A program made the position numbers and the translations under genes. From Pegoplata infirma (Eukaryota; Arthropoda; Insecta; Diptera; Anthomyiidae), in contig CAWUER010000512.1 of NCBI GenBank assembly GCA_963921195.1, forward strand, positions 186,001-250,000: a stretch of 64,000 bases of DNA. Direction: 5' to 3'. This document shows, piece by piece, positions 3,054 to 57,588 of this stretch (positions are counted from its first letter, which is position 1; every line of letters starts with the position of its first letter). The notes under the pieces were generated by a model. It had not been told where the DNA came from, searched no databases, and saw nothing but the letters and a program-made list of their open reading frames with translations.

Positions 3054-4203
3054 ATAACAAGTAGAAAAATTAAATTCGACTTGGTCGAATCTATGAATAC
3101 CTTCCACAATGTTATCCGATAGTACACTCAAAATATTTTGTAGGCAAAAATAAAAGAAAAACACACTTAAAACCAGTGAATAAACAATTGAAAACCATCC
3201 CAGTAATTATTCATTTGTTTTAACAAACATCAACATTTATTTTTTACTGTTGACAAAATTTTCTAAAATAAATAACATTAAACATTAAAAAATTAGGTTT
3301 TTTTCACTCATTTTTACCAACAAATTCGAAAAAAAAATAACCAACGAAAACATTAAAAATTAATGATAGTTCTGTTATTTTTACCAACAAATTTCAAAAA
3401 AATAACCTACGAAAACAATAAAAATTAATGATTTCGTAGGTAATTTTTTACAATTTTTTATTGAAATATTTTTTTTAAAACTTTTAATAAAATTTTTGGG
3501 GAATCGATCCCGCAATCAACTACATTCTGGCCAGTCACTTGATACAAACATGTTTTTATATTTCAATAAATAATTTTTTGATTTTTTTTTTTCTACAAAA
3601 AAATAACTGACTTGTGTAGGTAAAAACTAATGATATTTCATTAAAAAATACCAACAATTTAAAAAAAAATTACTTACAATAATCATTAAAAATCAAAAGA
3701 ATAATCAGTAGTTTTTACTTACAGAACAAAAATAAATGACTTTAAAAATTAAATGTTAATGAAAGTCTTTATTTTTTAGTGCGTTGTTTTTGAAACAAAG
3801 GACTGAAGTAGTCATTAATAAAAACTGAACATTAAACAAATGTTTTTTCTTTTAAAAACGACTAAACGTAAAACTTTTTAAATAAACTACAAACAGTTAA
3901 TGACATAATTTTTTGAGTGTAATTTTCTAAAAAAAAATTTCAAAAAATTGCTTACAAATTTTTTATTAGAAATATGTATATTATTTTGAGTCAAACTTTC
4001 TTTAAATCAATCAAATTTTTTTGAGTGTAAAATTTTTTTGACTGTCAAAATTTTTTTTGAGTCTGACATTTTATTAAAAAAAAATTAATGTGTACATTTT
4101 TTTTGAGTGTAACATTTTTTTTTTAGCGTAAATATTTTTTTTAATTGTACAATTTCTTTGAGTAACAAAATTACTTTTTAAAATATTTTTGTTGTTTTAT
4201 ACC
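3054..4203 (-). mobile_element. INE-1/DINE-1-like (HINE) fragment, minus orientation
   Basis: Starts with aacaagtagaaaaattaaat and the ttcgacttggtcgaa hairpin, the 3' terminal signature of the family. Gagtgtaaaattttttt blocks continue after the MITE at 3125-3919. The copy is cut off by a second MITE at 4206, so its 5' half is missing. Confidence 0.65.
3125..3919 (+). mobile_element. TA-flanked MITE, CACTCAAAA family, copy 1
   Basis: Ends CACTCAAAATATTTTG and TTTTTTGAGTG lie between TA dinucleotides (3123-3124, 3920-3921). It is about 95% similar by eye to 4206-5017 and inverted relative to 20497-23771. It lacks about 25 bp of the tRNA-like block present in copy 2 (after ctggccag near 3535). 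Confidence 0.8.
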
Positions 4204-4205
4204 TA

Positions 4206-5017
4206 CACTCAAAATATTTTGTAGGCAAAAACAAAAGAAAAACACACTTAAAACCAGTGAATAAACAATTGAAAACCATCCCAGTAATTATTCATTTGTT
4301 TTAAAAACATCAACATTTATTTTTTACTGTTGGCAAAATTTTCTAAAATAAATAATACTAAACATTAAAAAATTACGGTTTTTTCATTCTTTTTTACCAA
4401 CAAATTCGAAAAAAATAACCTACGAAAACATTAAAAATTAATGATAGTTCTGTTATTTTTACCAACAAATTCCAAAAAAATAACCTACCAAAACATTAAA
4501 AATTAATGATTTCGTAGATAATTTTATACAATTTTCTATTGAAATATTTTTTTAAAATTTTTTAATAAAATTTTGGGGAATCGATCCCGCAATCAACTAC
4601 ATTCTGGCCAGACACTCTACCCATCGTGCCATAGCCACTTGATATAAATATGTTTTTATATTTCTATAAATAATTTTTTGAATTTTTTTTCTACAAACAA
4701 ATAACTGACTTGTGTAGGTAAAAACTAATGATATTTCATTAAAAAATACCAACAATTTAAAAAAAAATTACTTACACAAATCATTAAAAATCAAAAGAAT
4801 AATCAGTAGTTTTTACTTACAGAACAAAAATAAATGACTTTATAAATTAAATGTTAGTGAAAGTCTTTATTTTTTAGTGTGTTATTTTTGAAACAAAGGA
4901 CTGATGTAGTCATTAATAAAAACTGAACATCAAACAAATGTTTTTTCTTTTAAAAACGACTAAACGGAAAACTTTTTAAATAAACTACAAACAGTTAATG
5001 ACATAATTTTTTGAGTG
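4206..5017 (+). mobile_element. TA-flanked MITE, CACTCAAAA family, copy 2
   Basis: Same termini and TA flanks (4204-4205, 5018-5019) as copy 1. It keeps the complete block ccagacactctacccatcg (about 4610), so it serves as the unoccupied reference for the Transib-like insertion at 20892. The block around 4570-4640 reads, on the minus strand, like a tRNA-derived segment with a B-box-like GGGATCGATTCCCC. Confidence 0.8.
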
Positions 5018-6769
5018 TATGTGTAATACATAAGAGGAGTTCCGGCTAAGACTTAAATTTTGAGGTAAAAAAGATGTGATTTTTATTTTGATGGCACATC
5101 GATGAAGTTGGCATAAATATTAGAAGCTATTTAAGAATAAGAAATTCGTTCGCGTCAATCAAATCGCTCAAGGGGGTCAAAAGTTATGACGGTTTTAAGA
5201 TTTAGCGGTTTTAAAAAATCTTAAAAATATTTTAAATATTTTTTTTCTACACATTTGTTGCATGCGTTATTAAAACATGCCAGGATATATCATTTCTTCT
5301 AAAATATATGATATAAATTTAACCCTTTAATGACCAAACGATTTAAAAAAAATATATCTAAGTACCTAAAATCGCGATTAATTCGCGGTAAAGGAAAAGT
5401 TTCACAATTTTTTATAACATATTTAGGCAATGCGCGTTGGTTTTACTGAAAAAAAAATCACGGAAAATGGTATCATTGTACCAGTGTTTAAAAAAATCGG
5501 TGATGCTTTTTTATAACAAGAAAATTTAATATGGTCGAAAAAATCTAAAATCATCAAAATTTTTTAACCCGCCACTGATTTTATGATGACATATCAAGTG
5601 GTCTTTCATTTAAAAAAAATTTCATCCGATTTCGTGTAAAGCCTTGGATGTGCCAGATCAAAACAGGTTTAGATAAAATCATCGCGCTTTCCACTCAGGA
5701 TGGCTTAAAGTAAAAAGTCAAAAAGCAAATCAGTTCTACTCGTTAAGGCACGTCTTTTGGTGTATTAAAATGAACATGATGCATTAATTGCTACTAAAAA
5801 AAAATTGGAAACAGATTTGCAAATTTCGCTCAATTTTCAAAAATGCCATAAAATTTTTGCAATTTATTTTGTATAAACCCGCCAGTGATTTTTTTATGTA
5901 AACTCCTAAAAAACTCGGTTTACGCAAGAGTCCACCAAATTTCGAATGAAACCGCGAATGTGCCTCGCGAAAAACTGGTATTTTAAAAAAATTACGTTTT
6001 TTCTTTCGAACTTTGATCTGCTGAAACTCCTTAACTATTCGCGGCACATCAACGGGATTAATTCCAAAATGTTAAGAATTACAACAGTTACCAACTCTAG
6101 TTCAACTTTTTTCATTTTATAGGGGGGGCCGAAATCCCTGATCAAAAAACCTCGAAAATTTAAAAACTCTTAATTTTCGTTTCAAAACTTAAGCGTCTTA
6201 TAACTTCTTACCAAGCGATCTATCAAGCCAACATTAAAATATTCTTTTATATGTACTGACTTTGTGTTATGTCGGAAAAGATTGAAATATAAGGAGAACT
6301 TAAAAAAAAAATGCGAAAGAAGGTAAAAACTATGGAATATTTCAAGCCAATTTTATCGATTTTTCAACTTTAACCCTCTGTAACTTTTACGGATAAAGTG
6401 AGGTAATCCTTAAACATTGCTCAGTGATGGTCTTGTTTACAAAACTGCATTTACAGTTTTTCTAAATTCCAAAAACTGCCGGTTTTTTAAACATTTATTT
6501 CAGTTTCACTGAGTTAAAATTTAAAAAAAGATTTCATGATAAATAAACTATTTCACATATTTTCCTCTTTTTTTTATATTACCATTCTCTTCTTTAAAAA
6601 CCAAAACCAAATTAACATTCAATCATACACATACTTTATTTGATTTGTTCCCAAAAATGCCTACTACTATATACACCGTTACATATAGTTACACTAACAA
6701 TAACAAAACAATAACAAATATTTACTTATTTGCAGAAAAACAACAACAAGTTTTAAAAAAACTGGTATT
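5018..6769. other. AT-rich DNA, no feature recognised
   Basis: Open frames here (for example 5784-6047 minus) have no coding bias or recognisable motif. No terminal repeats were found. Confidence 0.45.
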
Positions 6770-8103: not shown

Positions 8104-8690
8104 ATTTTTGAAAAGTATACGGAGTTAATTTATGGCAGTTTTGATTTTTTGAATAGCTATAGCTGTATAAATTTTCCTTAGTATTAATCGTATAGTAAAG
8201 ACATTTATCGAAAAATAGTGCTTAGAAAATCAATTTGTGTATTTAATACGAAGTGGAAAAATTTGTGATAGAAAAATGCATTTTAAACGCAGTTTTAAAC
8301 TGCATTTTTCAAGTAAATTTTTTTAATAATAAAATTCAAATGTAACAATTAATTTAAGCCAAAAGTCACTTGTATCCGTTTACTTTTGAATATTTTAAAG
8401 CCAAAAAATTAAAAAATCAAATTTTTTTAACATTCGCAATAAAAATTGAGTGGATAATAAAAAATGAGCTTAAAAATCGGGCTGCATAAGTCGATGCGAA
8501 ATTTATTTAGCTACAAGCAGCAAAAAAAAAATAAAATCGGTTAAGAATTGAGGGCTGTAGAAAATTCTGAAAAAAGTGCATCTCGCCCCACTGTGTCACG
8601 TCAAGAAAAATGAAAATATGGACTCTAGACCTGTTCTTAAAATCAATGTTTGTTGGATTGGCTTATATTAGATTCGCTCACTTGCATCTT
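8104..8690 (+). repeat. Diverged duplicate of 2513-3045
   Basis: Sequence from gtatacggagttaatttatg through the CACTGTG end (8589-8595), the flank tcacgtcaagaaaaatg and the tail gttggattggcttatattag repeats 2513-3045. Because the flank on the far side of the CACTGTG end is shared, this is duplication of the element plus its insertion site, not an independent insertion. Confidence 0.75.
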
Positions 8691-20006: not shown

Positions 20007-20891
20007 TTTTAATTAATGTATTTAAATAAATCGAAGCGAAAAAAATTTTGGTATGTTGAAAATTTGTAATTTGATGGTTAAAAAAAAATATCAAAAATGT
20101 TGATCATAATAATAACTGACTCTTTTAAATTTAATGATCAAAAGATTTAATTGAAATTTGTTAGCCAATAATTTTTTGTGTGTTGTTTCTGCTGATGTTT
20201 TGTAACACCAGCATTTTTTGACCACTGCCCATTTTTAAGAAAAAATCTCCGTCCATTCCTGCTGACGTTTTTCGTTTTTTTTTTTCACCTAGATTAATGT
20301 TGGTATATTTATTATTTCCGAAGCAATTTAGATGCTTTCGCGGCAGGAATTGCCCGATGCGAATGCGTGTTTAGAAGGAGATCCAGCGACTATCCAATGG
20401 AGGCAGACCACACCTCAGGATCCTTCAGGTATCGCAGGATGCAAGGAAAAGAAGTCTTAACTTTGCGCAGCCAGGATGCCTCAGAAACGTGTCATACACT
20501 CAAAAAATGATGTCATTAACTGTTTGTAGTTTATTTAAAACGTATTACGTTTTGTCGTTTTTAAAAGAAAAAGCATTTGTTCAATGTCCATTTTTTTTAA
20601 ACGACTATTTCTGTTCTTTGTTTCAAAAATAACAACATAAAAAATAAAGACTTTCATTAGCATTCATTTTTTAAAGTCATTTATTTTTGTTCTGTAAGTA
20701 AAAATAAGTGATTCTTCTTTAATTTTTAATGATTTGTGTACTTTATTTTTTTTTTAAATTGTTGACATTTTTAAAGAGAAGTCATTAGTTTTTACCTACT
20801 TCTGTTGGTTATTTTTTTGTAGACAAAAAATTCAAAAAAATATTTATAGAAATATAAAAACATATTTGTATCAAGTTACTTTGGCACGATG

Positions 20892-20920
20892 CACTATGCT
20901 TCGACCCATGGACAAAAGTA
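20892..20920 (+). other. RSS-like left end, 13-bp spacer
   Basis: Heptamer CACTATG (20892-20898) differs from the RAG consensus CACAGTG at two positions. Nonamer-like ACAAAAGTA is at 20912-20920. The spacer is 13 bp, against 12 in canonical 12-RSS. Confidence 0.6.
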
Positions 20921-21719
20921 AAAAAAAAAAATTTTGTCTCAAATTGTGTTTAAATACAGATTTTTTGAAAGATAATAAGGTATCTCAAATAAATATTAAC
21001 AGAAATATATTTTCTGATTACTTTTGTCACCACGAGAGGGCGCTAAACTCAGAGAATTTTATGCAAAAACTACTTAACAGGAAAATGTTTTTTAGCTGTT
21101 TCACAAAAATAATTCTCAAAAATTCATTTTTTAATAAAATGGTTCGAAATTTTGTTTTAAAGTACTTTGATATATTTGTAGTGAAGTTAAAATATAGAAT
21201 TTTGTATATATTTCCAAAAAAAAATTTTTTTATTGCGCAGAAAAACAAGTTTTTTTTGTTGAAAATCCAAAAATAGCTAAAGTTTGATGGAGTGTAAAAA
21301 AAAAAATATAAAAAAATAGATATTTTTTTTTTTCTTTTTTTTGTAGGTTTAAACTCTTATCTAACAGCGTATTCAAAAATTAGCGCCTATTTTTTACCAC
21401 AAATTAGAAAAAAATGCGTTTTTTTAAATGCCTAAATTCATGATTTTTACTCAAATATCATGCATTTAGGAGTGTTAAATATCATTGTGCAACACGATTT
21501 TATGTTTTGAAAGGGTAAAAAAGTAAAATAAATGTATATTAATAGTAGATCGAAATCCCCGCAGAATTTTGAAAATTTAGCTTGAGTTTTTTTTTTATGG
21601 CCCACTGAAGTTTTTAATTATTTTTCAAAGGAGTTCAGAATAAGTAAAAAAAAATATTAAATTTAATTTTGAGCTAAATGAGGTTAATAGATGTACAACG
21701 AAATTTGATGACGGTTCTT

Positions 21720-22900
21720 TTCTTAGAACATATTAACCCTCTATCTCCTATTTTTAGGGGTCACTTTAGTCCCTTTTCCAAATATCGTCGTAGAGCACCA
21801 CTTACACTTGCTTTTAAAGGGTTAACATGTTCTAAAAAATTTTTCTGCATAGAATTTCATTGTTAGTTGTAAAAGACCAAAAATTCGTAAGATATAAGCA
21901 AAATGCTTAAAAAAGTAAAAATTTTAATTATCATATATTGTTAAATTGTGATTCACCACAATTGAAATAATTCGATAAAATATAACAAATGTACTTCTGA
22001 GCCTAATACTGTTAATAGCTATCTTCGGTAAAATTTTATGTTTCTTTTTTCTTAAAATATATTAACCCTCTATCTCCTATTGTCAGGGGTCATTTCAGTC
22101 CCTTTTTTAAATATTCTTATAAAAAAACACTTAAACGTGCGTTTAAAGTGTTAAAACGTTCTACAAACATTTAATAGATATCTTTAATCATTCCAAACCC
22201 ATTAAAAAAAAAAAAAGTAAAGACTTCAATGGGCCATAAAAAGAACTCGAGCTAAATTTTCAAAACAATTCGTTTTTGGTTTACAAACGGTATATCTTCA
22301 TTTTTAGTTTTGTCCAATTTAAGATACACTCTGTGACCTCAAATTTGTTGCACAGTGTATTCTATTGAAGCTTTAAGTTATGTGAAATAACTCTTAAGTT
22401 ATAAATTATATTCAAGAAACTTTAAAAAAGTAATTTAGTATTACGCTTTAACCTTTAAACGCTCGTTTTATTAAATTTTATAAAAATATTTGAAATAAGG
22501 ACTAAAATGACCCCTTAAAATGGGAGATGGAGGGTTAATATGTTCTAACAAAAGAACCGTCATTAAATTTCACTGAAGACATTTTTCTTAAGACATTTTT
22601 TATGTCAGTAGTATTTTTAGTACATTTTTTCGACCTATTTCAGTCTACTTTGGTAAAAGCTATTTAACAATATATGATACTTTACAATTTTACTTTTTAA
22701 AGCATTTTGATTATATCGCACGATGTTTTGGCATTTGACAACCCCTAGTGAAATTTGATGCTTAACATTTTTGTAGAACATTTTAACTATTAAAACGCAC
22801 ATTTTAGTGTTGTTCTATGAGGATATGTTAAAAAAGGACAAAAATGACCCCTAAAAATGGGAGATAGGGGGTTAATGTATTCTAAAAAAAGAACCGCCAT
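21720..22900. repeat. Internal direct and inverted repeats of the Transib-like element
   Basis: The block ttaaccctctatctcctatt with aggggtca occurs forward at about 21732 and 22061, and inverted (gggagatggagggttaat, gggagatagggggttaat) at about 22520 and 22860. This gives a fold-back core. Poly-A/T runs separate the blocks. Confidence 0.6.
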
Positions 22901-23414
22901 CAAATTTTACTATAGATATGTATAAACATTATGTAGCTCAGAAGTTGATTTAATACATTTCTTTGACCTTTTTTAGATGACTTTAAAAATAAAAATAACT
23001 TATTTTCCAAAAAAGGATGTTTTTATATTTTCCACACTGCTAATCCGATTTTCCCCAAATTTGGCATTAATATATATCTAAGGAATATTAATTTGCTTAC
23101 AAAGTTTTTTTACGATCGGACAATTTTTGTAGGTGTTAAAGCGTTTCAAAGAAAAAGGATATATGGCAGGACCTTGAGTCCTTGCTCCGATTTAAGTGAA
23201 AATTTACATACACGTTGCTAGTGGAATGTGTATCAGCATGACCACTTTTTGTAATTTTTTGTGCATTATTGAAGCTAAAATTACATTTTTCAATTTCAGG
23301 ACACATGGGAGGTAGGCGTGTCCTTGCACCGATTTTTCCAAAAATTCATGTTTTTCTTAACTAATATATTTTATGTTAGTGTACCAAATCTCAAAAATAT
23401 CTGACAACTCCTTC

Positions 23415-23453
23415 TAATTTTGTCCCTTCGTTACATGGGAACGAAGCACTGTG
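23415..23453 (-). other. RSS-like right end, 23-bp spacer
   Basis: On the minus strand: exact RAG heptamer CACAGTG (23453-23447), 23-bp spacer, nonamer-like ACAAAATTA (23423-23415), which keeps the ACAAAA core. Confidence 0.65.
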
Positions 23454-24734
23454 CGATGGGTAGAGTGTCTGGTCAGAATGTAGTTGATTGCGGGATCGCT
23501 TCCCCAAAAATTTTATTAAAAATTTTTTAAAATAAAATTTAATAGAAAAAACTGTAAAATAACCTACGAAATCATTAATTTTTAATGTTTTCGTAGATAT
23601 TTTTTTGAATTTGTTGGTAAAAATAACACAACAAGCATTAGTTTTTAATGTTTTCGTAGTTTTTTTTTTTTGAATTTGTTGGTAAAAAATGAAAATGGCG
23701 TTATTTTTTTTTTAGGCAAAAATAACTTAAATATGTTTTTCATTTGTTTTGCCTACAAAATATTTTGAGTGTATGTTTCTGCAGAAGTTTTTCCAAGAAT
23801 CGCATTTTATCATTCTGATTATTTTCTTACAACTTTTAAGTTGCAGCCTATGTGCAGACCAGTCCTTGTCCACTCTTTAAGACTTTGTCTTATTAAAGAG
23901 CTTCCAGCAGGAATATGTGCTGGTCTGCAACTCATTTGGCCACAAAGGTGGCTTTTTTGCCCCATAGCATTTGCATAAGGGAAAGCTGCATCCAGACACT
24001 TATTACAAACATTTGTTATGTAGTCAACCAGAGAGTTAATGTTAGCCAAACTATGCGGTTTAGATAAGGGTAATTCATCCAATATCCGAGAAAAATGCTC
24101 CCCATATTTTACATATGTAGCGATGATCTGAGAAAAAATTTTCTTCAAAAACTCTCCAGTCATAAATTCTAACAGACAATGCATCTGGTACAAGTTTTAC
24201 ATAAAGAAACTCTTGCCACATACTTAAAATGAAAGTTGGTTCGCAACCCTTGTAACAGGTAGTGCTTAACCAAACCCAAAAAGTGATTCGACTCTATCGT
24301 TTGGTGCCAACCTATAGTCGGTGAGGCAGAGCCTCTAACTAAATCGGTATCATTTGTATCCATATTTTCGATTTCCTTGATGTGGCCTTGAAAATTTCAC
24401 AAAAAACTATTACGAACAATTTTATTAATCTGATTATTAGCATGGAGTTAAACTAAAAACACGTCTACAATATAAGTGTCCTTAAAATCTAAAATCACTT
24501 TTAACATGATAATGTTTTTAGGCTGGTGTCTAATTTTAAAAAAGTTGCAGGACGCCACCTCAGTTTCACTATATACTCGTAAGCTAACAATTAACGAAAA
24601 AGAAAATAAGAATTACTATTTTCAATTTCTTAAACCAAAAATTTTAGTAACTTGGGCTTGTAACTTGGATAATAATTCACCTCGTGGTGAATAAAATCGT
24701 TTTTCACCAGCTGGTGAATAAAAAGTACATGATT

Positions 24735-31235: not shown

Positions 31236-32275
31236 TATGGGGCATACCATGTCAAATCGGACACTTTGAAATTTTTTTTTTTTTAGATTTTCCCAATATG
31301 TTTACAGTTTTTAGTACCCTTCGAAAACTCCTTTGTGGTAAATTTTCAGATTTTTTTGATGACCCGTTCAAAAGATATCGAATTTTTGAAAATTGGTAAT
31401 TTGTTCCTTTACTCAAACTTCTTTTACTCATAACTTCTTCAATAATGGTCCAAATTTCAATTTTTTTTTTTTTTTATTTTTGCTTTTAAAGTACTTAAAA
31501 AAAAAATTTAAGGTGTGTTTAGAGAAAATGTTTGGACTAAAAAAATATTGTGGGTCGGTCATACATTTTGTTACTCTAAGGGCAATATTAGGGCAGTTAG
31601 AGCGGGTGGAGCAAATTTTAAAAAATGTCGTTTTGTGTGGAAGCCCCCTTAGAAATTGTAGATAGGGTATTAGTTTGTTCCAAAGAAATGTTAAGACGGA
31701 AAAATTAATGGGGGTCGGTCTTATAAAGTACCCCTCTATGACGCACCATTCGAGCAGTAGAAATGATTTTAAGATTGGAAAATTACAATAAAATTTTTTC
31801 AAAAAATTAAAAAAAATAGTAATAATCGTTATCCCACGAGCCTCCTGGGCAAAAAACTTGTAGAATCGATAGATGTTTTACACAAAAAAATTTCAAAAAA
31901 ATCGAAGAGTACAAACATTTTCAAAAATGAGATTTAAATTTTAAAACTTAAAAATCGCATACTAAAGCTCTTTTAAGAATTTTTCGGGATTCTTTTTTAA
32001 AAAGTACGTAAAAAAAACAAAAATTTTGAAAAAAAGAAATTGAAATTTGGATTATTATTGAAGAAGTTATGAGTAAAAGAAATTTGAGTAAAGGAACAAA
32101 CTACCAATTTTTAAAAAATCGATATCTTTTGAACGGGTCATCAAAAAAATCTGAAAATTTACCACGAAGGAGTTTTCGAAGGGTACTAAAAACTGTTAAC
32201 AAATTGGGAAAATCTAAAAAAAAATTTTTTCAAAGTGTCCGATTTGACATGGAATGCCCCATATATATTGTGTTT
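31236..32275. mobile_element. Long inverted-repeat element, ATGGGGCAT ends
   Basis: About 190 bp at each end are inverted copies (ccatgtcaaatcggacactt; aaactcctttgtggtaaatt). The terminal word ggcattccay is shared with 47740 and 63035, hinting at one family. The internal frame at 31428-31802 shows no known domain. Confidence 0.6.
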
Positions 32276-39193: not shown

Positions 39194-39232
39194 CACAGTG
39201 CCACATTTGGCCAATCTAGAACGACAAAAATC
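39194..39232 (+). other. RSS-like left end, 23-bp spacer
   Basis: Heptamer CACAGTG 39194-39200, spacer 39201-39223, nonamer ACAAAAATC 39224-39232. Confidence 0.75.
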
Positions 39233-39989
39233 CAATTTTTATTATATTGTCTTGAAATTCGGTATAAATGTTCGTTTTGACTTCGAAAATAACATTATGA
39301 AAAATGTGGGAGGCCGGTTAAGGGCCACGCCCACTTTTTTTAAAATTTGTAATTTTGGTTATAATTTCTTTAAATTTGGTATATATACTCTCAATGACTG
39401 TAGAAATAATATCACAAAAAAAGGGGGCGGTCAGACAACTGTCACGCCCACTTTTTTAAAATATGTTTAAAAAATATGTAAAAACAAGGTTTACATATCG
39501 CCCCACTGTAGTCGGCGTCGCAGACGGTCGCAAAAGTTAGCCGTTGAAATAAGTACTATGGATATTGGTCAATATATCTGAAAAAGTCCGGCGACCAATA
39601 CGGACCAAACACAAAAGTTCTATTCCATCAAAAAAAATAAATATATAATTTGCTTTTCAAAAATTTGTATTTTGTTAAAAATTTAATGAACAATAGAAAA
39701 ATTTGTTAAAAAAAAAAAAGAAAAGATATGACTTAAAACATTAAAATATCCTTTAAAATTACCAAAAAAGAGTGGATAAATATGTTCAAAAGTTACAACA
39801 GTTTAAACTCGACTTAATTTATGCGAAATAATGTGCACTAGTTACAGGATTTTACAAGATGCAAATTTATGCACCCACCTGTTAGTAACGAGCAGAATTA
39901 TCGATCTTATATGATTATTTCCGTGCTATTAGGAATGTTCTATAATACATACAAACATATCATGAAAATCGGGGAACTTTCTTTTTTTG

Positions 39990-40028
39990 ATTTTTGTCGT
40001 GCTAGATTGGCCAAATGTGGCACTGTGC
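39990..40028 (-). other. RSS-like right end, 23-bp spacer
   Basis: On the minus strand: heptamer CACAGTG 40028-40022, spacer 40021-39999, nonamer ACAAAAATC 39998-39990. Confidence 0.75.
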
Positions 40029-40953: not shown

Positions 40954-42717
40954 AAAGCTATCAAAGAAGCGAAAGCCTCCACGGCAATAGGTCCAGATGG
41001 TCTCGCTATGATCATGCTTAAACACGTGGGGGAGAAAGGGTTGACATACATGGCAGAAACGTTTAGCCTGTGTGTTAACTCCTTGGAGATTCCAGACATG
41101 TGGAAGCTCGGGAAGATTATTCCCCTTCTCAAACCTGGGAAGCCCAATAATTTGGGGAGCTCCTACAGACCGATAACACTACTGTCACCAGTGGTTAAGG
41201 TCCTGGAATCTGTCCTTCTCCCTACTCTTAGGGAGAATCTCCCCATGGCGGACCACCAACATGGCTTTCGTTCTGGTCACAGTACAACAACTGCGTTGTG
41301 CGAAATCACGACAGCCATAGCCGGAGGCCTTAACAGCAGACGCCCACACGAGAGGACCATTGTGGTCGCTCTCGATCTGTCTAAGGCCTTCGACACGGTC
41401 TGCCACACGCAGCTTCTGCAAGACCTGTATGACTCTACGCTCCCTAATGTCCACAAACGATGGTTGGCGAATTACATGGCTGGGAGGCAGTCATATGTAG
41501 AGTTTAGAGGTTCCAGGTCGGGACTGCGGAGAAATAAGCAGGGTGTTCCACAAGGGGGTGTCCTCTCACCCATCTTGTTCAACACATATATCTCCAAAAT
41601 CCCGACCCCACCTCCAGGACTGAAATTGATATCCTACGCCGATGACTGCACAATTTTGTGCACAGGCAGGGATATCGAAGCCCTGGAGGAACAGCTTAAC
41701 AGCTATCTGCCAACCCTGACGAAATTTTTGGCAGATAGGAACCTCCAGCTCTCGACACCCAAGTCGACGGCCACGCTCTTCACCACGTGGACTAAAGAGG
41801 TTAACAGGGAACTCAATGTCCACATTAGTGGGCAGAGAGTTCCCACGGTGAAAAACCCCAAAATTCTTGGGGTTCACTTCGATAGCCTCTTTATGTTCGC
41901 GAGGCATTCTGAAGAGGTGACCAGGCGAGTGAAAGGGAGGAACTCCATTTTGAAAGCGCTGACTGGCAGCACCTGGGGTAAAGATAAGGAGACGATCTTG
42001 ACTACGTATAAAGCCATAGGTCGTCCCCTTATCGACTATGCCTCCCCGGTATGGTCGCCGTCCGTTAGCGACACACAATGGAGAAAGCTCCAAACGGTGC
42101 AGAACACGGCCCTCAGGGTGGTAACAGGATGTCATTCCATGGCATCTGAAGACCACCTACATGAGGAGACCAAAATTCTGCCCGTTCGGAGCCATTGCTC
42201 CCTTCTCACTCGTCAATTCGTACTTGGATGTCATATGACCGAGCACCCCAACCATGCAAGCGTCGTTGGTACGTCGGCACCGGAGGTGAGACAGGTGAGG
42301 TCTGACCTACGGTCCGAGAAATCGGCCGTGAGTCACCTCATCGGTCTTGTGCAGTGTGGCGACTTAAAAGAGGCGCAGGCTCGCCTACACACGGAGATCG
42401 TCTCGGAATCCATTGGGAGGATGCGAGACAATGTTGTGTTAGGTGGCAGGCCCCCTCCCCTTTCCGAATCCGAAAAGAGCCTGCCACGTAAGGTCCGCAC
42501 GACATTGTCCCAACTCAGGTCAGGTTACTCTAGGGGGTTAAATAGTTACCTGGCCAGAGTTAACCCTGACATCTCTGATGCCTGCCCTCTTTGCAGCGCT
42601 ACACCTCACAACACCATACACCTCTTCGAGTGCCCGGTTCGGCCCACGACACTCACACCTAGGTCATTATGGACCAATCCAGTCGAGGCAGCTCGCTTCC
42701 TCGAACTGGAAGGGTAA
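40954..42717 (+). CDS. LINE ORF2 fragment: reverse transcriptase
   Basis: The frame is open from 40954 (AIKEAKASTAIGPDG, the entry to the reverse transcriptase domain; the Met at 41008 is internal) to the stop at 42717, 587 residues. Reverse transcriptase motifs in order: YRPITLLSPVVKVLE, HGFRSGHSTTTAL, LDLSKAFDTV with the first catalytic Asp, QGGVLSPILFNTYIS, and YADD with the two catalytic Asp (41635-41646). After the thumb comes a C-terminal CPLC...H...C zinc-knuckle-like motif (CPLCSATPHNTIHLFECPV) and the ending LWTNPVEAARFLELEG. Endonuclease and ORF1 are absent through 5' truncation; no RNase H is seen. The family is of the Jockey/CR1/LOA/R1 type; the clade is not certain. GC-rich and without stops, so a recent arrival. 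Confidence 0.9.
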   Translation, partial: KAIKEAKASTAIGPDGLAMIMLKHVGEKGLTYMAETFSLCVNSLEIPDMWKLGKIIPLLKPGKPNNLGSSYRPITLLSPVVKVLESVLLPTLRENLPMADHQHGFRSGHSTTTALCEITTAIAGGLNSRRPHERTIVVALDLSKAFDTVCHTQLLQDLYDSTLPNVHKRWLANYMAGRQSYVEFRGSRSGLRRNKQGVPQGGVLSPILFNTYISKIPTPPPGLKLISYADDCTILCTGRDIEALEEQLNSYLPTLTKFLADRNLQLSTPKSTATLFTTWTKEVNRELNVHISGQRVPTVKNPKILGVHFDSLFMFARHSEEVTRRVKGRNSILKALTGSTWGKDKETILTTYKAIGRPLIDYASPVWSPSVSDTQWRKLQTVQNTALRVVTGCHSMASEDHLHEETKILPVRSHCSLLTRQFVLGCHMTEHPNHASVVGTSAPEVRQVRSDLRSEKSAVSHLIGLVQCGDLKEAQARLHTEIVSESIGRMRDNVVLGGRPPPLSESEKSLPRKVRTTLSQLRSGYSRGLNSYLARVNPDISDACPLCSATPHNTIHLFECPVRPTTLTPRSLWTNPVEAARFLELEG

Positions 42718-56342: not shown

Positions 56343-57588
56343 CACAGTGTTGTGACCTTGGCCATAAATGGTCAAATTAAATGTCTTAAAACTTCAGGTT
56401 ATATAAATTTTATTTTAAGAAAACATCATAAATAAAACAAATCCAAAACAGTTTATAGATATCTTTAACAGTTTTTAAGTTACATGTCTCTAAAGTTGAA
56501 GTTTTTAAAATATATAATATTTTAGATTTAAAATCTTTGAAATCCACATGTACTTGTAACGGTTAAATAATTCCAAGAACCATTATTGGTCATCCAGGTC
56601 TGACACAAATTAGATGCTTGGCAAGACACAAGTTGTGCATTAACAGATGCAGACTTTTATTTAGTAAGATTTTGTTGAGGAAGTACGTTGTTTTATATTT
56701 TTACTTGCTTATTTTATAAAGGTCTTTTTGAGATAGGCATATCCCTGATCAAACCTAAAACAATATTAAACGTATTGTAAATACTACGTGCAAAAAGTTT
56801 TGTGAATAATTGATAGTTTTAAGGTCAAAGGATTTCCCTGAATTTTCTCATGTCTTTATAAAAGGGATATTTATTCGCTAAGAATATCCTAATAATAGGT
56901 TAAGGAAAATCCTTGCTTCAATTATACTAAAATAAGGTATTTTCGACATTATCAGAACAGAATTTCATGAAGTACGAAGGATTTTTTAAATTTTTTTTTT
57001 AATTTTTTAGGGACATTTTTAATTTATGAATTACATCCTTGCTTCAATTTTTCATTTGATTAGGATTTGAGATATATTCTAAGTGTTGAGGATGCAAAAA
57101 TTCATGAAGGAATTTGAATTTTACACTTTTTCTTGACTTTTTTTAAAAAAGGAGATTTTCGAGGAGGGCGTATCCTTGTTCCGATTTGCAGAAATTTTGG
57201 TAAATACATTAGGCATATTATAACAGTTGGGTTTTCAAAATTTTATGAAATAACTTAAATTTTTACCATTTTTCTAAACGTTATTTTAAAAAGGACATTT
57301 TTGAGCTAGGCGTATCCTTGCTCCGAATAGGACAAAATTTGGTTGAATAATTAATGGCATTATAGGTAATAACTGCAATAAATAACATGAAGATTGAAGT
57401 TTTAGTTTTCATTTAATGCCATATTTTAATTTCAGGACATATGGGAAGGATACGAATCCTTGTTCGGATATTAACCAAATTCAAAATTTTTCTTGATCTT
57501 GTGATCTTAACAAGTGTTCCAAATTTTAACGCTCTAACTTAACTCCTTCTATTTTTGGCCACTCTTTACATGAAGACGCAACACTGTG
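56343..57588. mobile_element. Transib-like non-autonomous element, third copy
   Basis: Ends are CACAGTG at both sides. Flanks CTCCG (56338-56342) and CTCCA (57589-57593) match at 4 of 5, and the paralogous unoccupied site tagctactccatggcc stands at about 61293. Right end: 23-bp spacer, then CCAAAAATA; it aligns with the right end of 20892-23453 (shared CATGTAA and agaaggagtt). Left end: weak CATAAATGG after a 13-bp spacer. The interior has roughly 140-bp units around ggcgtatccttgctccga, also present near 23170-23320. No transposase. Confidence 0.7.
57550..57588 (-). other. RSS-like right end, 23-bp spacer
   Basis: On the minus strand: heptamer CACAGTG 57588-57582, spacer 57581-57559, nonamer-like CCAAAAATA 57558-57550. 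Confidence 0.6.

Follow-up and report, generated by a model that had tools for sequence, protein, structure and literature searches.

The element at positions 20892-23453 of the DNA analysed here (64,000 nucleotides of Pegoplata infirma, hereafter the window) belongs to a young, abundant and recently amplified family of non-autonomous Transib transposons whose left and right ends differ in spacer length, 13 bp against 23 bp. Taken as a whole, the data are probably best explained by a non-autonomous Transib that was mobilised in trans and amplified, with a shortened left end and an unequal spacing that is tolerated. The assignment to the Transib superfamily as a non-autonomous element, made in an earlier sequence-only reading, was borne out by the CAC termini, the exact 5-bp duplication of the CGNCG type and the lack of a long open stretch in the consensus.

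The flanks of the focal element, joined through a single CGATG, matched positions 5021-4367 without a break (86.6%), representing an empty site. A further relative of the repeat around the element provided a second empty site, the joined flanks matching positions 3921-3287 (82.8%). These two uninterrupted matches firmly fix both the boundaries and the 5-bp duplication. The sequence-only reading had derived exact boundaries from the target kept at 4206-5017, and its coordinates, heptamers, 13- and 23-bp spacers, nonamer-like words and CGATG duplication were all recovered (Table 1). The ends, their spacing and the duplication are confirmed as real. The termini fit CAC(A/T)(A/G)TG in inverted orientation.

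Table 1. Features of the focal element and of related sequences in the window
Feature	Position	Strand	Remarks
Non-autonomous Transib-superfamily element (focal)	20892..23453	+	2562 bp
Left target-site duplication CGATG	20887..20891	+	Basis: empty sites
Right target-site duplication CGATG	23454..23458	+	
Left heptamer-like CACTATG	20892..20898	+	
Left 13-bp spacer CTTCGACCCATGG	20899..20911	+	
Left nonamer-like ACAAAAGTA	20912..20920	+	Family consensus ACAAAAGTC
Right nonamer-like ACAAAATTA	23415..23423	-	
Right 23-bp spacer CTTCGTTCCCATGTAACGAAGGG	23424..23446	-	Carries 7-bp inverted repeat CTTCGTT/AACGAAG
Right heptamer-like CACAGTG	23447..23453	-	
Empty-target relative of the repeat surrounding the focal element	4204..5019	-	92.5% to further relative at 3123-3921
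Second Transib-like non-autonomous element	39194..40027	.	CACAGTG+23+ACAAAAATC, symmetric 23/23, duplication CGTAG
Third Transib-like element	56343..57588	+	Spacers 22/23, duplication CTCCG/CTCCA

Two details of the sequence-only reading were modified. The extra 10 bp on the right stood as a net difference but not as a single stretch: CTTCG and CCCATG blocks are common to both spacers, and the difference is divided into 1 bp between these blocks and 9 bp after CCCATG. The left nonamer-like word is present in the focal copy but is a minority variant, carried by 3 of 33 full copies, and the consensus differs. For the chance occurrence of such ends, all CAC..TG pairs 150-12000 bp apart within the 64-kb window were compared. 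The focal pair was one of two that combined a perfect 5-bp duplication with at least 9 of 12 matching end letters; when 4/5 duplications were allowed, six pairs (two with a common left end) were detected, whereas 10 shifted controls averaged 0.6. Inside the element, element positions 717-1276 and 1544-2110 form a large inverted repeat (74% over ~570 bp), and more internal repeats are present.

The family was searched for in the 1.38-Gb assembly, in which the window is C504:186001-250000. Searching with the 201-bp left end yielded 523 candidates, of which 40 were scored, at 98-100% identity; 39 other places were fetched, one of them twice, giving 40 loci. The left spacer was 13 bp in 40/40 fetched loci (39 places). 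Including the window copy, 40 copies had a left end and 33 a right end readable in the fetched stretch. The right spacer was 23 bp in all 33, and the right heptamer was CACAGTG in 32 and CACATAG in one. The 5-bp duplications were identical in 30 of the 33 full copies, the three others being L031, L040 and L044; position counts gave CGNCG, and the duplications had a GC content of 77%, compared with 30% for the window. The family consensus measures 2553 bp and has no open stretch longer than 127 aa; several copies are shorter, at about 2230 bp. The median divergence from the consensus was 1.0% (33 copies). Because the copies were picked by how closely they resemble the left end of the focal element, the invariance of that end and the low divergence are partly due to selection of the sample; the right end was unselected.

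With up to three mismatches, the left end was found at 417 places and the right end at 395, and the reversed-pattern control gave 0 for each. When the spacer was left open at 7-37 bp, the left end gave 216 matches, with 13 bp in 100/100 of the matches listed, and the right end gave 224, with 23 bp in 99 and 22 bp in one of the 100 listed. The spacer difference, whose disappearance the sequence-only reading had named as the result that would speak against it, persisted in the consensus and among the listed genome-wide ends. In both, the spacers of 13 and 23 bp fall within the 12/23 ± 1 definition.

Pairs of exact ends were counted among the 100 left and 56 right ends of C1 together with the part of C2 below 120.5 Mb. 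Inward left-right pairs within 10 kb numbered 38 and right-right pairs 0, and the single left-left pair, 8.2 kb, encloses a complete left-right element. These counts fit a mixed-pair rule and descent from a single founder equally. The focal copies descend from one founder. At C3:114015386-114015473, two focal right ends, one on each strand, are separated by 16 bp at their tips, representing either two neighbouring insertions or a rearranged junction. At the level of titles and abstract openings, where the sequence itself is not searchable, no report of the family was found.

The window contains two further Transib-like elements. The 42-bp inverted ends of the element at 39194-40027 match at 95%, and its nonamer-like word agrees with the RSS nonamer in 8/9 letters; ends similar to those of this element are carried by L053 and L075. 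For the element at 56343-57588, the left box is weak (4/9), and the final ~170 bp share 70% identity with the focal right end, indicating that this element is probably an older relative of the focal family. The sequence at 2306-2955 and a right end at 8595 form a CACAGTGGGG-ended pair with duplications matching at 4/5, possibly another Transib-like family. Inverted repeats with CACTTTG ends and the duplication TCGGA/TCCGA occur at 31262-32237, and a 569-aa ORF at 41008-42717 resembles, by eye, a non-LTR retrotransposon reverse transcriptase.

The first search for transposases gave 2074 candidates, of which 69 were scored, yielding 71 matches, some of them pieces of one gene and several with intact ORFs; the second gave 3843 first-look candidates. 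The genome is rich in Transib transposases, with about ten families with long ORFs as judged by identity levels without clustering, whereas PMC4411706 describes one to a few copies as typical of autonomous Transibs. Family I is represented by L080 (C4:97688528-97691574), an apparently complete autonomous Transib with a 745-aa ORF. The second search detected three near-identical full-length ORFs of this family, L080 among them, indicating that it was probably recently active. The ends of family I (L080, 529-3575) consist of CACTATA, a 22-bp spacer and CCAAAAGTC on the left and of CACTATA, a 23-bp spacer and CCAAAATTA on the right, with the duplication CAGTG. Family I resembles the focal family in its words, which agree in 8/9 letters at each end, in the difference between the left and right words (GTC versus TTA) and in its 5-bp duplication, but it differs in its autonomous ORF, its 22/23 spacing, its spacer sequence and its heptamer. 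Bases 18-60 of the focal consensus align to the family I left end (79% over 43 bp, E 9e-5), in A-rich sequence.

Boxes in the comparison of spacers were assigned by eye. Family H (L069, one copy read) has 21/21 spacers and the duplication CGACG. For families G, K/L and E, of which the right end alone was read, the spacers were 23, 22 and 23 bp, respectively. The right ends of A (L049, L050: CACAGTGGGCCAAAGTACC..), B (L079: CACAGTGGGAAAAATCACC..) and C (L094: CACAGTGGACCAAATGCTC..), as well as C113 (L052) and C2:142 Mb (L087), had no confident box and were excluded from the comparison; of the 17 fetched transposase flanks, L081, L083, L085, L090, L095 and L097 had no recognisable end. All 11 non-focal Transib ends with an assigned box had spacers of 21-23 bp. 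The focal left end, about one helical turn short of these, is an outlier. By comparison with the other families, its 13-bp spacer was therefore read as derived, apparently through loss of that turn.

The sequence-only reading had suggested a Transib transposase encoded elsewhere and proposed a search for one whose own ends match. Transib transposases with several intact ORFs were indeed found, but none with focal ends among the flanks, intervals and listed places compared. The focal right end was absent from 17/17 flanks downstream of transposase genes (13 + 4 flanks). Fifteen mid-chunks, taken from left-right intervals 3.0-6.1 kb long, gave no transposase match (E ≤ 1e-3, 215 proteins). When the best transposase places were compared with the first 100 listed places per end pattern, the nearest transposase to a focal end, among 37 listed transposase places on C1/C2 and the listed ends, was 22.8 kb away. 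Against four local transposases, the focal element showed no transposase remnants. None of the families with readable ends has the focal ends, and the autonomous partner was not found, either by a family search or by the two transposase searches; our best guess is a relative of family I.

The GRP motif was invariant in 31/31 aligned transposases. In the set of 40 aligned for folding, GR was invariant and P nearly so, and 41 of 211 transposases carried the stricter [RG]GRP word within their first 220 aa. In some RAG structures, the full transposase model places the motif opposite the beginning of the RAG1 nonamer-binding domain (residue 99 to RAG1 391 in 5zdz_A, at an rmsd of 8.3); for most RAG rows, the alignment with the full model begins only at about residue 175. 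The hhalign probability for the RAG1 nonamer-binding domain was 4%, with 0/150 full shuffles and 3/150 shuffles with the hook kept scoring as high. No RAG1 chain was among the 6 weak matches of the profile search, and the domain model alone gave no match at E ≤ 0.001 and one RAG chain among 13 weak matches. Sequence profiles and the domain model by itself did not establish homology to the nonamer-binding domain, the hook alone being suggestive.

We propose that a RAG1-core-like Transib transposase made elsewhere would bind both focal ends in trans. The cut would adjoin CAC, and the element would be inserted with a 5-bp duplication of the CGNCG type. The Transib reaction is described as forming a hairpin on the flank (PMC6941560) and Transib insertion as producing 5-bp duplications (PMC7204232), indicating that the focal element was most likely excised and inserted in trans. 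The left end may descend from an end whose spacer was originally 21-23 bp and which lost a net 10 bp. Since this loss is about one helical turn, the xCAAAA box would keep the same face of the helix. The N-terminal region with the GRP motif perhaps contacts this box via a flexible hinge, and the transposase would tolerate, not demand, unequal spacing.

An origin from another superfamily with CAC termini, which are common to the CACTA/EnSpm and Chapaev groups, is extremely improbable. The target duplication expected in those groups is 2-4 bp, whereas the empty site shows exactly 5 bp for the focal element and 30 of 33 copies have a CGNCG-like duplication, and the word pair is common to the focal family and the full-length Transib of family I; non-Transib superfamilies were rejected on the 5-bp duplication. 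It is rather unlikely that the nonamer-like words are incidental A-rich sequence, so that the terminal ~15 bp would be recognised and the spacer difference would be meaningless. The window is 70% A+T with CAAAA at 0.6% of positions, several local families have no assignable box, and invertebrate RAG-like proteins are argued in PMC7204232 to use mainly the outer 15-17 bp. However, a box of the xCAAAA type is found at 21-23 bp in several families with unlike spacer sequence, and the GTC and TTA variants recur in family I.

A functional 12/23-like asymmetry, with 13- and 23-spaced ends synapsing far better than like pairs, is unlikely. It is consistent with the ratio of left to right ends of about 1:1, with the left-right pairs found to the exclusion of right-right pairs and of any left-left pair other than the one enclosing a complete element, and with a spacing that was fixed in the listed places despite the wide spacer search; ProtoRAG is also reported to prefer its own asymmetric ends (PMC8289069). 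However, because the copies descend from a single founder, the hundreds of them amount to one observation. Moreover, family H (21/21), family I (22/23) and the element at 39194-40027 (23/23) coexist in the genome without such asymmetry, and mouse RAG1 alone is described as not favouring 12/23 pairs over 12/12 pairs (PMC8355894). The data are accounted for just as well by a founder event combined with tolerance of one helical turn as by a required asymmetry. That a RAG2-free Transib transposase enforces a one-turn 13/23 pairing rule via its N-terminal GRP-hook, as a RAG1-nonamer-binding-domain-like domain whose hinge would let it reach an xCAAAA box at either spacing, is distinctly doubtful. 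If it did, loss of one turn from a symmetric end would have given rise to the 12/23 rule within Transibs, in the absence of RAG2.

Ends resembling 12/23 within 1 bp are described for Transib5 of D. melanogaster and for Transib2, N1, N2 and N3 of A. gambiae, and symmetric spacers of 20-22 bp for other Transibs (PMC8355894, citing Kapitonov & Jurka 2005); the focal asymmetry is therefore not new in kind. As set beside each other by description alone, these elements and the focal one share the superfamily and unequal 12/23-like spacers between heptamer- and nonamer-like words, but they belong to different families and genomes. HzTransib (PDB 6pqn series) resembles the local transposases in the catalytic region (E=6.6e-113, by sequence), its solved chain matching from profile position 176 on, behind the local GRP-bearing region. 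Unlike the focal 13/23 ends, those of HzTransib are symmetric according to PMC8289069 and resemble the nonamer little or not at all. ProtoRAG of amphioxus is like the focal element in its unequal spacers and GC-biased 5-bp duplications, as described in PMC8289069, and unlike it in having 27/31 spacers and a RAG2-like partner gene. The vertebrate 12-RSS and 23-RSS have the same pattern of heptamer and nonamer, with 12/23 instead of 13/23 spacers, although the focal element is a transposon. Compared with the RSS nonamer ACAAAAACC, ACAAAAGTC agrees in 7/9 and ACAAAATTA in 6/9 letters; the focal heptamers agree with the RSS heptamer in 5/7 and 7/7.

Whether the 12/23 rule was brought by the transposon or added in vertebrates is debated (PMC8355894, PMC8289069). 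In the present analysis, a 13/23 family was measured for its copy number, the constancy of its spacing and its target duplications, together with symmetric families that share its genome. The co-occurrence of a young 13/23 family with 21/21, 22/23 and 23/23 Transibs and intact transposase ORFs constitutes a natural experiment, and these natural, probably recently active substrates could be used to test whether a RAG2-free transposase prefers mixed spacers.
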